Origin: Cupriavidus pauculus
GTDB lineage: Bacteria > Pseudomonadota > Gammaproteobacteria > Burkholderiales > Burkholderiaceae
DNA: 64,000 bases
Direction of reading: 5' to 3'
Assembly (NCBI RefSeq): GCF_022179805.1
Contig: NZ_BPUO01000016.1
Span: forward strand, 62,001-126,000
Shown here: positions 42,515 through 47,672 of the stretch, in pieces
How positions within the stretch are numbered: position 1 is the first letter of the stretch
Layout of the letters: each line of letters starts with the position of its first letter
Notes under the pieces: model-generated
Databases searched by the model: none
What the model saw: only the letters and a program-made list of their open reading frames with translations
Told to the model about the DNA's origin: nothing
Translations under genes and position numbers: made by a program

Positions 42515-43777
42515 TCAGCCCTTGGGGTTCAAGGGCTTGAGCACAGGAGGGCGCTGCAGGTCTGGCGCCGCCGCGGCCAGGATATCGGCGCGATTGCCGT
42601 TGCGTGGCGGGTAGATCCGCTCACGGTTGATCACGTTCTTGGTGGCCTTGGCCTGTTCGCCCTGCGCCACCACCACGCGGTCCCAACCCTGGGCGTACAC
42701 GGCGCCGGCCGGTCCCAGATCGATGATGTTGGTGTACCAGTCGATATCGAGCGCCAGCATGTCGTGGCCGAACAGTTCGCATACCGCGTTGTAGCCGGCA
42801 AAGCGGCCCATCGGCCGGGCGTGCTGGCACGACATCACCGATGGATGCTCGCCATCGATCAGCGCATGGGCGACATCGCCCGCCGCGAACACATCGGGCA
42901 CGCCTTCCACACGCATGAACGCATCCACGAACAGCCGGCCCTGCGCGTCGTGCTCGGCCGCGATACACGCCGTCAGGTCGTTGGCGCGCATGCCGGCGCA
43001 CCAGACCACGGTGGCCGTATCGATATGGGCGCCGTTGGACAGCGTGATGCCGGTGGTGTCCAGCGCGGTTACCGACACGCCCGGCATCAGCTCGATGCCC
43101 AGCGCACGGCACGCCTGCTCGATCACCGGCTGGGCGCCGCCCAGGTGTGCGGCGATGACGGCGTTGCTATCGACCAGCAGCACGCGCACTTGTGCTTCCG
43201 CATTGGGCGCGCCGCTGGCGCGCGCCACGGCGCGCAGCCGGTCGGGCAGTTCGCAACCCAGTTCCACGCCGGTGGCGCCGGACCCGATCACCACCGCCGT
43301 GTACTGGCCCGGGCGCGGCGCCAGCGTGGGCAGCGCCTCGATATGGCGCTGCAGGCGCAGCGCTTGGGCATAGGTGTCGATGTCGAACGAGCGGATGTCC
43401 ACGTCGGGCAGCGGCGGGCGCACCAGTCGGCTGCCGCTGGCCAGCACCAGCTTGTCGTAGGGCAGGGTGGCGGAGGGCTGCCCAACCATGTCCACGCGCA
43501 CCAGGCACTGCCGCGTGTCGATATCGGCCACATTGCCGACCACCAGTTCCACGCCGATGGGGTCCAGCACCTCGTGCAGCGGCACCAGCGTGGGCGCCAG
43601 GTCCGCTTCGTAGTTGCGCACGCGAATGCTGTGCTGGTCGTCACGATTGACCAGCGTGATGCTCACGGGTTTGTCCAGTTGGTCCGCCATGCGTGCTGCT
43701 GCGGCGGCGGCCCAAAGGCCCGCAAAGCCACCGCCGATGACCACAATGTTCTTCACTTCGGGTTTCTTCAGGATCAC
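42515..43777 (-). CDS. Type II NADH dehydrogenase-like FAD oxidoreductase
   Basis: A 420-residue pyridine nucleotide-disulfide oxidoreductase of the NDH-2 group, with FAD motif VVIGGGFAGLWAAAAAA, NAD motif VVIGSGATGVELGCEL and the FAD-closing VFAAGDVAHALI. It would oxidise NADH to quinone or another acceptor at the membrane surface without proton pumping. It starts at GTG 43777 with no clear ribosome site. It is 36 bp downstream of the PhnD-like gene, so it may be the last gene of that operon. Confidence 0.85.
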   Translation of the reverse strand: MILKKPEVKNIVVIGGGFAGLWAAAAAARMADQLDKPVSITLVNRDDQHSIRVRNYEADLAPTLVPLHEVLDPIGVELVVGNVADIDTRQCLVRVDMVGQPSATLPYDKLVLASGSRLVRPPLPDVDIRSFDIDTYAQALRLQRHIEALPTLAPRPGQYTAVVIGSGATGVELGCELPDRLRAVARASGAPNAEAQVRVLLVDSNAVIAAHLGGAQPVIEQACRALGIELMPGVSVTALDTTGITLSNGAHIDTATVVWCAGMRANDLTACIAAEHDAQGRLFVDAFMRVEGVPDVFAAGDVAHALIDGEHPSVMSCQHARPMGRFAGYNAVCELFGHDMLALDIDWYTNIIDLGPAGAVYAQGWDRVVVAQGEQAKATKNVINRERIYPPRNGNRADILAAAAPDLQRPPVLKPLNPKG

Positions 43778-43813: not shown

Positions 43814-44620
43814 CTAGCGAATTTCGGCGTACCCGTCTTCCTGTGCCGCCGCAGCCGCCAGGTCCCGGTAAGCTGCCACGTCGGGGCGGTCGAAGCGTTC
43901 CACCAGCACGGCTTCAAGCAATGGCTCGTAGTCCGGGCCGCCATGCAGGGTGCATAGTCGTTCAATCAGCACGTCGCGCTCGGCCTCGGGCAGCGTTGCC
44001 GAGGCCACCAGCAGCGGATTCGGTGTCCACGGCGTGCAGGCGATGGTCTGCAGACCTTCCAGCAGCGCCGGATCATGCCGGCGCACGAGATCGAGAAAGT
44101 AACTGTCCAGCGCGGTGACGTCGATCTGCCGGTCGCGCAGCGCCGTCAGCGCGCGCATGGGTGTATCGAGCGGGCCGACGGATTCGGCGAACAGCGCCCC
44201 GCGTTCCCGCGCATACGGCGCCAGCAGTTGCCGCGCGGCGTGGTAGCCCGACTGCGAATGCCGGGCCATCCAGCCAAAGCGGCTGTCGAAGGTGTCCTCG
44301 ACCTTGTGCCAGCCGCTGTCTGCCCGCACCAGCAGTTCGCTGCGGTAGCGCGCCTGCCCACCATAGGCGTCCGGCGATGGCACGGGCGCCACCAGTGGGA
44401 CCACGGGCGCCACGCCCTGTGCGAATGGCAGCCCGCACATGAAGCCGCAGACAAGATCGGGCCGCTGCCATAGCGAAGGCAGCGGCGCGGGCCACGCAAA
44501 CGGCACCACCTCCACCGGCCACGCCAGGTCCGCGAACACGCGCGTGAACAACGCCTGCCACGCGGCGGTGACCGCCGGCGTGGCGTTGTACATGCGGAAC
44601 GACGCGATGCCGGCCGTCAT
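43814..44620 (-). CDS. PhnD-like substrate-binding protein without signal peptide
   Basis: A 268-residue protein with the two-lobed PhnD/phosphonate-binding fold suggested by IASFRMYNATPAVTAAWQAL, SLWQRPDLVCGFMCGLPFA, WMARHSQSGYHAARQLLAP and ALRDRQIDVTALDSYF. The N terminus goes straight into the domain with no signal peptide, so it should be cytoplasmic. Its ATG follows the stop of the ornithine cyclodeaminase-like gene by one base (TGACATG on the coding strand), implying coupled translation. A sensor, carrier or enzyme-partner role is possible; ABC permease genes are absent. Confidence 0.75.
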   Translation of the reverse strand: MTAGIASFRMYNATPAVTAAWQALFTRVFADLAWPVEVVPFAWPAPLPSLWQRPDLVCGFMCGLPFAQGVAPVVPLVAPVPSPDAYGGQARYRSELLVRADSGWHKVEDTFDSRFGWMARHSQSGYHAARQLLAPYARERGALFAESVGPLDTPMRALTALRDRQIDVTALDSYFLDLVRRHDPALLEGLQTIACTPWTPNPLLVASATLPEAERDVLIERLCTLHGGPDYEPLLEAVLVERFDRPDVAAYRDLAAAAAQEDGYAEIR

Positions 44621-44621
44621 G

Positions 44622-45626
44622 TCAGGCAAAGCGCAAGGTCTGGCCCAGCCCCTTTGCGCGCGCCTTGGTCAGCATCGCGTGGCCCAGTGCGATGTCGGTG
44701 GTCGACAGGCCCCGGTGCCAGAACAGGATGGTCTCGTCGTCGCGCTCGCGGCCCGGCTTCAGGCCCGCCACGATTTGCCCAAGCTCGGCGTGCAGGTTTT
44801 CCTCGTTCAGGCGGCCGCTGTCCACATGCTCGCGCAGCGCGCCAAACGGCAGGCCCTTGCGGCACTGGCCCCAGTCGTCCACCACCATCTTGCTCATGAT
44901 GTCGGTCAGCGACAGCTCCACGGCGCTCATCGTGCCGTAGGGAATCACCAGCGCGCCGGGCTTGATCCATTCGGTCAGCAGCATCGGCGTGGGCTTGGGC
45001 AGGCGCGATGCCTCCACCACGATATCGGCGCCCCGCACGCACGATTCCCAGTCCTCGGTCACCGTCACCGGCTTGCCCAGGTCGCGCGACAGCCGTGCGG
45101 CAAACGCATCGCGGCTTTCGGGCCGGCGCGAATGCACGCGGATCTCGTCGAAATCGAACAGCGAATCGAGCAGGCGCACGTTCCAGTACGACGTGCCGCG
45201 CGCGCCGATGTGCGCCAGCACCTTGCTGCCCTTGCGCGCCAGATGCCGGGCACCGAGCGCGGTCACGGCGCCGGTACGCATGTCGGTGATCGCGGTGGCG
45301 TCGATCACGGCCAGTGGCGTGCCGTTGTCGGGATCGAACAGGTTGAGCAACGCCATCTCGGACGGCAGGCCCTGCTTGTAGTTGTCGACGTAGTCGGACA
45401 CCACCTTCACGCCCGCCACATGCAGCGGCTTGATAAAGCCCCGCAGCACGTTGAAGTGCCCCTTGTCCGACGATTCCGGTACCAGGTGCACGCGCGGTTC
45501 GATCACGGTTTCGCGGCGGCCCTGCGCGGCCAGCGCGGCCTCCACCGCAGCCAGGATTTCCGCGTCGGTCAGCGCCAGTTCGGCAACGTCGGGGCCGTTC
45601 AGGTAGGTCAGGTACAGCTCTTTCAC
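44622..45626 (-). CDS. Ornithine cyclodeaminase/mu-crystallin family enzyme
   Basis: A 334-residue NAD(P)-dependent enzyme of the OCD/ketimine reductase family. Family segments are KVVSDYVDNYKQGLP, DATAITDMRTGAVTALGARHLA, LAHIGARGTSYWNVRLLD and EASRLPKPTPMLLTEWI. Start is GTG 45626, supported by AAGGAG. Usual reactions are ornithine to proline or imine reduction; the Bug receptor immediately upstream in the operon suggests an imported acid or amino-acid-like substrate. Confidence 0.88.
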   Translation of the reverse strand: MKELYLTYLNGPDVAELALTDAEILAAVEAALAAQGRRETVIEPRVHLVPESSDKGHFNVLRGFIKPLHVAGVKVVSDYVDNYKQGLPSEMALLNLFDPDNGTPLAVIDATAITDMRTGAVTALGARHLARKGSKVLAHIGARGTSYWNVRLLDSLFDFDEIRVHSRRPESRDAFAARLSRDLGKPVTVTEDWESCVRGADIVVEASRLPKPTPMLLTEWIKPGALVIPYGTMSAVELSLTDIMSKMVVDDWGQCRKGLPFGALREHVDSGRLNEENLHAELGQIVAGLKPGRERDDETILFWHRGLSTTDIALGHAMLTKARAKGLGQTLRFA

Positions 45627-45636
45627 GGGGGTCTCC

Positions 45637-46620
45637 TTACTGCAGTGGGGGAATGTTGGCGCGATGCACGATGGCGCGCCATTTCGTGGTTTCCGTGGCG
45701 ATGGTCTCGCCGAACGCCTGCGGCGTGCTGCCCACGGGCTCCAGGCCCAGTGCGTCGAGCTTCTGCTTGACGTCGGGGTCGCGCAGCACCGTTGCCACAT
45801 CCTTCTGCCATTTGCGCACCACGCTCTCTGGCGTGCCCTTGGGCGCCACCAGCCCGTACCACGACGTCACGTCGAAACCGGGATAGCCCGATTCGGCGAC
45901 GGTCGGCACGTTGGGCAGTTGCTGCAACCGGTGCGGGCCGGCCACGGCCAGCGCGACGAGCTTGCCCGTGCGCACATGCTGCAGCACCGTGGAAATACCG
46001 CCGAACATCATCTGTACCTGGCCGCCCAGTACGTCGTTGAGCGCCGTGGCCATGCCGTTGTACGGCACGTGCACGGTCTTGACGCCGGCTTCCAGATTGA
46101 GCAGTTCGCCAGCCAGGTGCGCGCCGCTGCCATTACCCGGCGACGCGAAATTGAGCTGGCCCGGATGAGCCTTGGCATAGCCGACCAGTTCCTTGAGCGA
46201 GCGCGCCGGCACCGATGGATTCACCACCAGCACGTTGGGCGACGACGCCAGCATCGTCACCGGCACGAAGTCGCGCGTCTCGAAATTGAGCTTGCGGAAC
46301 AGGATGGGATTGACCGTCAGGTTGCCGGCTGGTGCAAGCCCCAGCGTGTAGCCGTCGGGCGCGGCGCGCGCCACGGCTTCCATGCCGATGTTGCCGGCGG
46401 CACCGGGCTTGTTGTCGACGAGCACGGGTTTGCCCCATTGCTCTGACAGCTTCTGTCCCACCAGTCGCGGCAGCGAATCGGCTACGCCACCAGCGGCAAA
46501 CGGCACCACGATCCGCACGGGCCGCGCGGGATAGTCGTCAGGCTGCGCCTGGGCGGCGAGCGGCATGGCCGCCAGCAGCGCGACGATGGCCGGTACGGCC
46601 AACAACTTCTGAAAGGCCAT
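45637..46620 (-). CDS. Bug/TctC-type periplasmic receptor of the cyclodeaminase operon
   Basis: A 327-residue receptor with signal peptide LLAVPAIVALLAAMPLAAQA. Motifs VVPFAAGGVADSLPRLVG, VDNKPGAAGNIGMEAVAR and VHVPYNGMATALNDVLGGQ are clear. An in-frame GTG at 46647 with GGGGAG upstream is an alternative start adding nine residues. First gene of an operon with the cyclodeaminase-like gene 10 bp later; divergent GntR gene and repeated operators suggest substrate-controlled expression. Confidence 0.92.
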   Translation of the reverse strand: MAFQKLLAVPAIVALLAAMPLAAQAQPDDYPARPVRIVVPFAAGGVADSLPRLVGQKLSEQWGKPVLVDNKPGAAGNIGMEAVARAAPDGYTLGLAPAGNLTVNPILFRKLNFETRDFVPVTMLASSPNVLVVNPSVPARSLKELVGYAKAHPGQLNFASPGNGSGAHLAGELLNLEAGVKTVHVPYNGMATALNDVLGGQVQMMFGGISTVLQHVRTGKLVALAVAGPHRLQQLPNVPTVAESGYPGFDVTSWYGLVAPKGTPESVVRKWQKDVATVLRDPDVKQKLDALGLEPVGSTPQAFGETIATETTKWRAIVHRANIPPLQ

Positions 46621-46721
46621 GGCCGGCCCCTGTACATAACGGTTCACGCAGAACTCCCCGTGTTCAATTGCACCCCATGACCCTGTCAGGCTGCCGCGCG
46701 TCCTTGTCTTGGCGCCCGACT

Positions 46722-46765
46722 TGTATAGACTGATCTTAAAGAAGCTGTCTGATACTGTATAGACA
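46722..46765. promoter_or_regulatory. Two TGTATAGAC boxes, HutC/GntR-type operators, over the Bug promoter
   Basis: TGTATAGAC at 46722-46730 and TGTATAGACA at 46756-46765 are direct repeats 34 bp apart in the 314-bp divergent gap 46621-46934. The second is a near-palindrome like HutC-group sites (TGTATATACA). On the minus strand CAGACA, 18-bp spacer and TATACA form a promoter for the Bug operon that overlaps the first box. Nothing else was seen in this gap. Confidence 0.65.
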
Positions 46766-46934: not shown

Positions 46935-47672
46935 ATGCCAGCCCGTCCGAGCCCGCAACCCGTCGATCCGGCCACGCCCGCTTTCCAGCGCATCAAGGAC
47001 TACGTGCAGGAGCAGATCGCGGCCGGCGTATGGCGCGAGGGCGATGCCATCCCGCCCGAACTGAAGCTGGCGGATACCTTCGCGGTCTCGCGCATGACCG
47101 TCAATCGCGCGCTCAACGAGCTGGAGGCCGAACAGGTGCTGGTGCGGCGCAAGGGCGCGGGCACGTTCGTGGCGCAGCAGCGCTACCAGGCCACGGTGGT
47201 GGAGATCCGCAGCATCGCCGAGGAGATCCGCGCGCGCGGGCATCGGCATCGCAGCAGCCTGTACCGGCTGGAACGGCAGCGCGCCACGCGCAGCCTGGCC
47301 AGCCAGTTCGGCGTGGCCGAGCGCAGCACGCTGTTTCACTCGGTCATCCTTCATTACGAAAACGACGAGCCGATCCAGGTGGAAGACCGCTGGGTCAATC
47401 CCGCGCTGGCGCCAGACTACATGGAAGCCGATTTCGGCACGATCACGCCCAACGAGCACCTGATGCACGTGGCGCCGCTGCAGCGCGCCGAGTACCAGAT
47501 CGAGGCGCTGCTGCCCGGCGCCGAGGTGGCCGAGATGCTGGCCATCGAGCCGGCTGAGCCGGCGCTGGTCTTGCGCCGGCGCACGTTCTCGCGCGGCGCG
47601 GTGGCGTCGGTGGTGGTGCTCTGGCACCCGGGTAACCGCTACCGGTTTGGCGGGGCGCTGGGACAGGCGTAG
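46935..47672 (+). CDS. GntR-family regulator, HutC subfamily
   Basis: A 245-residue repressor. The winged helix (about 15-80) includes IPPELKLADTFAVSRMTVNRAL and LVRRKGAGTFVAQQ; the C-terminal UTRA effector domain includes TLFHSVILHYENDEPIQVEDR and ALVLRRRTF. GGAG precedes ATG 46935. It is divergent from the Bug-cyclodeaminase-PhnD operon and very probably represses it through the TGTATAGAC boxes; the inducer may be an amino-acid derivative, as in histidine utilisation. Confidence 0.9.
   Translation: MPARPSPQPVDPATPAFQRIKDYVQEQIAAGVWREGDAIPPELKLADTFAVSRMTVNRALNELEAEQVLVRRKGAGTFVAQQRYQATVVEIRSIAEEIRARGHRHRSSLYRLERQRATRSLASQFGVAERSTLFHSVILHYENDEPIQVEDRWVNPALAPDYMEADFGTITPNEHLMHVAPLQRAEYQIEALLPGAEVAEMLAIEPAEPALVLRRRTFSRGAVASVVVLWHPGNRYRFGGALGQA

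Follow-up and report, generated by a model that had tools for sequence, protein, structure and literature searches.

Phosphonate-binding-protein-like folds, the ornithine cyclodeaminase (OCD) family, HutC regulators and Bug receptors are all known. The pocket of AioX, as given in the passages of PMC5908839 that deal with it, comprises Tyr88, Cys106, Tyr131, Ser161, Ser163, His192 and Asp210, with arsenite linked to Cys106. The relevant passages of PMC5343134 place an ornithine cyclodeaminase in the HypR regulon. The two genes that concern us here are often annotated separately, as a 'PhnD/SsuA/transferrin family substrate-binding protein' and an 'ornithine cyclodeaminase family protein'. The combination described below is provisionally new: among the matches listed from the open-access literature (titles and the starts of abstracts), none linked HutC or ergothioneine to an OCD together with a PF12974 protein that lacks a leader.

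We analysed a stretch of 64,000 nucleotides from Cupriavidus pauculus, called the window throughout. The locus is laid out as follows.

42515–43777, same strand as PhnDc: NDH-2-like FAD oxidoreductase, 36 bases past PhnDc
43814–44620, minus strand: PhnDc, a leaderless PF12974 binding protein of the AioX type, 268 residues
44622–45626, minus strand: OCD/mu-crystallin-family enzyme, 334 residues, GTG start
45637–46635, minus strand: Bug/TctC receptor (PF03401, 256 bits) with a hydrophobic leader
46722–46730, plus strand: first putative core of a HutC-type operator, TGTATAGAC in TTGTATAGACTG
46756–46764, plus strand: second putative core of a HutC-type operator, TGTATAGAC in CTGTATAGACAA, 34 bases away from the first
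46935–47672, plus strand: HutC-type GntR/UTRA regulator (TIGR02018), divergent from Bug-OCD-PhnDc

The enzyme gene starts with the GTG at 45626 and stops at 44622–44624, and the PhnDc ATG lies at 44618–44620; the single base between the two genes that the first-pass annotation had reported is borne out by these coordinates. For Bug, an ATG at 46620 (MAFQKLL...) is a likelier start than that of the annotated frame. The NDH-2-like gene is left out of the unit because the gene 3' of PhnDc varies among relatives. Six Bug/TctC-like frames in the 64-kb window fall into one sequence cluster by single linkage.

We propose, with a probability of roughly 0.55, that Bug-OCD-PhnDc and the divergent HutC paralogue form a portable side module of histidine utilization (hut), in which PhnDc is a cytosolic partner of the OCD enzyme.

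Fold, export signal and pocket of PhnDc

The first-pass annotation had assigned a phosphonate-binding-protein-like fold to PhnDc. Indeed, the protein matches PF12974 with 80 bits (cut-off 27), and a confident AlphaFold2 model (pLDDT 95.6, pTM 0.92, 47-row alignment) matches the AioX, ArrX and PhnD chains. The likeness to PhnD holds for the fold but not for the nearest sequence profiles, which are those of AioX and ArrX: among solved chains, a profile search gave 155 bits for AioX, 131 for ArrX, 57 for PA3383 and, further down, 50 for PhnD. Fold alone barely tells them apart, because the VIA Z-scores of the model are close (ArrX 26.7, AioX 26.6, PhnD 25.5). PhnDc misses the cut-offs of both TIGR03431 (20.5 bits, cut-off 261) and TIGR01098 (30.7 bits, cut-off 112), and the NMT1/THI5 family was not among the Pfam and structure matches listed.

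PhnDc appears, from its sequence, to stay in the cytosol rather than being exported. Its open frame has 284 codons, 16 above the 268 counted from the ATG, and the single extra start is a TTG three codons upstream, so that there is no room for a leader. Moreover, residues 1–3 of the model align to the start of the solved AioX, ArrX and PhnD chains, which argues that PhnDc is the mature domain alone. Starts in relatives had been chosen nearest the expected N-terminus, and we therefore inspected upstream starts there as well. In 45 of 57 PhnDc rows, the window row included, no further start was found 8–60 codons upstream; among the other 12, only L186, which belongs to another clade, has an upstream start yielding a hydrophobic N-terminus. 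The maximal 12-residue hydrophobicity within the first 32 residues is 0.93 for the window protein and 0.42–2.14 (mean 0.92) for the 32 rows of its type, compared with 1.78–2.81 for nine exported binding proteins from these loci, a range that PhnDc of L182 (2.14) overlaps. These calls combine upstream starts with a simple hydrophobicity measure and use no trained predictor. A hidden leader in PhnDc was rejected in view of the 284-codon frame and the scan of 57 rows, and the earlier claim that the protein has no signal peptide survives a deliberate search for one upstream and in frame. Leaderlessness looks general across the PhnDc subfamily (57 rows, a set that omits L054, L175, L178 and rows below 136 bits). 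The export signal expected of a PhnD-type ABC receptor is, as far as sequence goes, missing from the window protein.

The pocket is largely retained. AioX Cys106, Tyr131, Ser161, Ser163 and Asp210 correspond to C62, Y92, S122, S124 and D172, so the window protein has five of the seven pocket residues, Tyr88 and His192 being replaced by Pro44 and Pro154. Across 47 aligned rows the equivalents of Cys106, Ser161 and Asp210 are present in every one, that of Ser163 in 46 and that of Tyr131 in 43; C62, S122, G125 and D172 are invariant in 52 rows. Every one of the 32 rows of the window's type (29 from loci with both PhnDc and OCD, plus L151, L177 and L179) has Pro or Ala at the His192 site, and the Tyr88 site is Pro in the 23 OCD-linked rows examined. 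Retained pocket residues together with an altered His192 site point to an anion-type cleft with one systematic change.

A second leaderless clade, separated from the window's with support of 100/100, has the pocket His in 25 of 25 rows. A gene of the fatty-acid-desaturase family lies within 3.5 kb in 20 of these 25 (L050, L051, L052, L144, L152–L156, L159, L161–L167, L169, L185 and L186). The window's own genome contains one such desaturase-linked copy, L050.

Could PhnDc be an enzyme in its own right, a binding-protein fold turned catalyst whose own step would rely on Cys62 or Asp172 for catalysis? Periplasmic-binding-protein folds have become catalysts in MqnA, MqnD and THI5, and both the lack of a leader and the four residues invariant in 52 rows would suit such a role. 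Since PhnDc accompanies OCD, desaturase genes or lyases, it is just as likely to catalyse its own reaction in series as to form a subunit. We know of no enzyme in PF12974, and the equivalent residues bind ligand in AioX, a sensor, in the part of PMC5908839 that describes them. On balance we regard a catalytic PhnDc as unlikely, yet worth serious attention.

The OCD enzyme and its pairing with PhnDc

The window OCD matches PF02423 with 189 bits (cut-off 24) and aligns over its whole length to solved members of the OCD/mu-crystallin family: the archaeal alanine dehydrogenase 1omo, the pyrroline-2-carboxylate reductase 6t3e and the putative ornithine cyclodeaminase 4m54. Four solved chains match at E 1e-30 or better; one of them is 4m54, which we take to be SbnB, a family member that oxidatively cleaves an N-substituted amino acid. 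The best NCBIfam match, alanine dehydrogenase, reaches 180.8 bits against a cut-off of 409, and the other 18 matching models also stay under their own cut-offs, so that the scores support neither ornithine cyclodeaminase proper nor another named equivalog. Orthologues are 68–96% identical to the window enzyme (74–96% within Cupriavidus), a far stronger conservation than PhnDc shows. In alignments the enzyme retains Arg45, Lys74 and Arg117, the α-carboxylate binders of the family. This retention weakens a reading of OCD as a reductive desulfonase of 2-sulfo-urocanate. The second Rossmann strand is followed by an Arg-Arg pair, which suggests that the enzyme uses NADP(H). We also considered a part in D-/L-histidine conversion, by analogy with DauA/DauB. 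A structure model of the enzyme (pLDDT 79.3, 11 rows) was poor and was left out of the analysis.

The two genes travel together. PhnDc of the window's clade occurs in 22 of 36 Cupriavidus genomes (the window's own and 35 others; the copy of G028, one of the 22, is split), OCD orthologues occur in the same 22, and by coordinates the two lie side by side in all of them. Two arrangements are found: that of the window, HutC | Bug-OCD-PhnDc, with PhnDc 63–80% identical to the window protein, and LysR | OCD-PhnDc-Bug, with PhnDc about 35–39% identical. Beyond the genus, the pair recurs in distant soil bacteria. Among the 29 loci with both genes, 28 have them on the same strand with gaps of −4 to +21 bases (27 loci measured, Martelella taken from annotation), among them Cupriavidus, Polaromonas, Rhizobium, Martelella, Terrarubrum and a Comamonadaceae plasmid; the genes lie apart in Paracoccus. 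A Bug receptor is found near PhnDc and OCD in relatives as well. The gene-neighbourhood survey that the first-pass annotation had called for thus finds the pair conserved.

OCD orthologues are sparse in wider samples: 11 of 398 genomes phylum-wide, six of these from one genus, and two of 300 in an order-level sample. PhnDc adjoins OCD in four of the 11 phylum-wide genomes. At eleven OCD loci (six genomes of one alphaproteobacterial genus, Rhizobium CC-CFT758, Rhodobacteraceae M382, Paraburkholderia PGU19, a Streptomyces plasmid and G341) no PhnDc was seen in the stretch fetched, which argues that OCD does not always need PhnDc.

Three loci need a word on scoring. In the Cupriavidus locus L049 (G028:C1:1541549-1542336), two overlapping frames make up a split PhnDc beside an open OCD frame, and the locus was counted as lacking PhnDc in the row set. 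L184 was scored without PhnDc in the row set and in one tree, and a PhnDc was later found in its cluster; L179 was scored without OCD in the row set and in the other tree, the first part of its OCD being missing. On a plasmid of Azospirillum B510, L184 (L184:114-9973) has OCD and PhnDc clustered with a MIO-less lyase (GADD), a desaturase gene and ABC genes of the dipeptide type, an assembly close to that of Terrarubrum (L089).

The first-pass annotation had also stressed that the operon has no ABC genes. This is true of the window unit but not of the clusters in Rhizobium, Martelella and G622, which do contain them. The receptor of these clusters is a separate one; in Rhizobium and Martelella it bears a leader and is of the OpuAC type, for which reason PhnDc was rejected as the ABC receptor of such clusters. 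What was essential in the earlier reading, a leaderless fold genetically coupled to OCD rather than an exported transporter receptor, is supported, since relatives with ABC genes bring another receptor. Substrate channelling, co-catalysis and sensing, which the first-pass annotation had suggested, stay candidate roles. Taken together, co-occurrence, gene order and the retained pocket support PhnDc as a predicted cytosolic partner of OCD.

Neighbouring lyases, HutC and histidine utilization

The analysis covered 21 OCD loci from beyond Cupriavidus, near copies among them (six from one genus, two from close Rhizobium). Of these, 19 contain a lyase gene of the HAL (aromatic-amino-acid-lyase) family; none was seen in the Terrarubrum and G341 stretches. 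The A-S-G triad of such lyases forms MIO. It is absent from 16 of the 19 neighbouring lyases, which have GAAD, GAGD, GEAD, GADD or GASD instead, and present in three (Paracoccus, Comamonadaceae and G205). Ergothionase, in the portion of PMC13405746 that covers it, is a trimethylamine-releasing lyase without MIO. For each of three lyases beside OCD that we tested, ergothionase 6s7j is the best solved match, with 342 against at most 176 bits in Polaromonas, 267 against 239 in Rhizobium and 240 against 228 in L145; the margin is wide for Polaromonas only. In both trees that were built, Polaromonas branches as the sister of the window group.

OCD directly adjoins a MIO-less lyase (GAGD, GAAD or GASD), with no PhnDc seen in the stretch, in L145–L149, L176, L180, L181 and L183, which come from Alphaproteobacteria and one Streptomyces plasmid. 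A second type of MIO-less HAL homologue, with GYLTH at the cofactor site, occurs at L142:15478-17112, L158:14226-15719 and L186:9856-11352, and each of these loci also contains a PhnDc.

OCD and PhnDc may instead belong to an already published breakdown pathway of ergothioneine or of ergothioneine sulfonate (one for the sulfonate is cited in PMC13405746), with the window carrying a derived copy. The 6s7j matches and the 16 lyases without A-S-G speak for it, as do a YeiH-type exporter in Rhizobium, Polaromonas and Paracoccus and betaine-type transporters nearby. The window genome tells against it: no MIO-less lyase was found there, both of its lyase matches having A-S-G, as have three of the 19 neighbouring lyases. 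Among the matches listed from the open-access literature, moreover, none joined OCD with ergothioneine. Lyase matches occur in 37 of 40 Cupriavidus genomes, at 43 places; of the 30 places fetched as loci, 29 have GASGD and one, in G018, has GEAD, and beyond these the motif was read at the place in G000. With only G018 among the 40 having a MIO-less lyase in the matches read, a betaine substrate is no simple fit to the genus. Given GASGD in 29 of 30, we did not take up ergothioneine as a substrate for the window itself, and membership of the wider pathway remains doubtful to us.

The HutC-type regulator and the operator-like motif it shares with the hut locus are the strongest functional clue, and one that was absent from the first-pass annotation. 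The regulator passes TIGR02018 (HutC; 292 bits, cut-off 220) and misses the narrower PRK14999 (227.5 bits, cut-off 424); it is a paralogue with 38% identity to the canonical hut HutC. The core TGTATAGAC occurs twice in the window, against 0.03 expected, both times in the divergent intergenic region. The 12-base pattern YTGTATAGACWR has four copies in the 6.8-Mb genome, all at the window unit or the canonical hut locus: two at the unit and two at the hut locus, of which one lies between canonical hutC and HAL and the other precedes the ABC genes. A reversed-pattern control gave one match. The pattern was built from three of the four sites, so its rarity and the fourth site carry the weight. Paired sites 34 bases apart recur in L031, L033, L035, L036 and L037, and single ones in L032 and L034, before HAL in L090, and in L150; one-mismatch variants lie near HutC in L182, L088 and L091. 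Scanning stretches near HutC in L086 (Rhizobium) and L158 did not turn up the motif. From its location we regard it as a putative HutC operator.

Gene order leads to the same pathway. A Comamonadaceae plasmid has ABC-HutC-HAL-HutU-[OCD-PhnDc-Bug]-...-HutD-HutI-HutF-HutG, an order repeated in G205, and the hut operon of the window genome has this order minus OCD-PhnDc-Bug, with 51–87% identity gene by gene. A plasmid of Rhodococcus, an actinobacterium, carries OCD (a fragment)-PhnDc-Bug-HAL-ABC. The Bug-OCD-PhnDc unit therefore looks, by sequence, to be part of the HutC (histidine-utilization) regulon, an assignment new here. Against the hut module stands the second Cupriavidus arrangement, whose regulator is LysR and not HutC.

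We can outline how such a module might work. The HutC paralogue would repress from the two operators until released by a urocanate-like inducer, as knowledge of HutC suggests. Bug, going by its family, would bind a histidine-related compound in the periplasm and pass it to a TctAB permease encoded elsewhere. The OCD enzyme, probably dependent on NADP(H), would then act in the cytosol on an α-amino or α-imino acid form of the compound, for example by oxidative release of an α-N substituent or by reductive amination, as its family and carboxylate-binding residues suggest. The PhnDc cleft (Cys62, Tyr92, Ser122, Ser124, Asp172) may accommodate an anionic substrate or intermediate, with the protein working alongside OCD, and the product would enter the hut pathway, whose operon bears the same motif. 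A histidine altered at the α nitrogen would be a substrate that suits both A-S-G and MIO-less settings. More tentatively, the unit could be a dedicated HutC-controlled route for modified, perhaps α-N-substituted, histidines, with PhnDc as a substrate-holding OCD subunit whose pocket was re-tuned from His to Pro or Ala.

Alternatively, PhnDc might bind the inducer in the cytosol and, as a sensor, signal to the local regulator, much as periplasmic AioX does to its kinase. Its nearest kin, AioX and ArrX, are sensors; in Paracoccus the HutC gene shares one base with that of PhnDc, and in L158 HutC adjoins a PhnDc belonging to the other clade. The same PhnDc clade, however, occurs with HutC, with LysR or, in the Terrarubrum stretch, with neither, and HutC and LysR proteins sense ligands themselves; we consider a sensor quite improbable. 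That PhnDc is a relic ABC binding protein, its leader and function lost, is hardly credible: one Cupriavidus copy (G028) is split between two frames and PhnDc diverges faster than OCD, but dN/dS is 0.17–0.26 (four pairs), the pocket is retained over 57 rows and the leader is absent subfamily-wide.

Comparison with known systems

Should the subunit reading be right, a periplasmic receptor fold would have been co-opted into a cytosolic enzyme. A mis-named transporter part becomes a candidate enzyme partner. The pair gains a testable home, in the histidine-utilization regulon and in clusters with MIO-less lyases, with a reach over Alpha- and Gammaproteobacteria (Burkholderiales included, in the GTDB sense) and actinobacterial plasmids. 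The pocket difference distinguishes the two leaderless clades, and a short substrate list follows.

PhnDc resembles AioX and ArrX, which sense arsenite and arsenate in the periplasm, over its whole length (VIA Z 26.6–26.7). Unlike them, it has no leader, and there is no sensor kinase or response regulator among its window neighbours, which are OCD, Bug, HutC and the FAD oxidoreductase. With PhnD and PtxB, ABC receptors for phosphonate and phosphite, it has the fold (VIA Z about 24–25.5) and a serine pair in common. It differs from PhnD in lacking a leader, in the absence of ABC genes from its unit and in having Cys62 where PhnD has Gly65, according to the passage of PMC5908839 that gives this residue. 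With the other leaderless clade, near fatty-acid-desaturase genes, it shares the PhnDc superfamily and the CGxP motif. The members of the HutC regulon named in the relevant passages of PMC5343134 do not include OCD, PhnD-like or Bug genes. The window unit nevertheless has in common with the hut regulon a HutC-type regulator and a rare motif, and in the Comamonadaceae plasmid OCD, PhnDc and Bug lie inside a hut operon.
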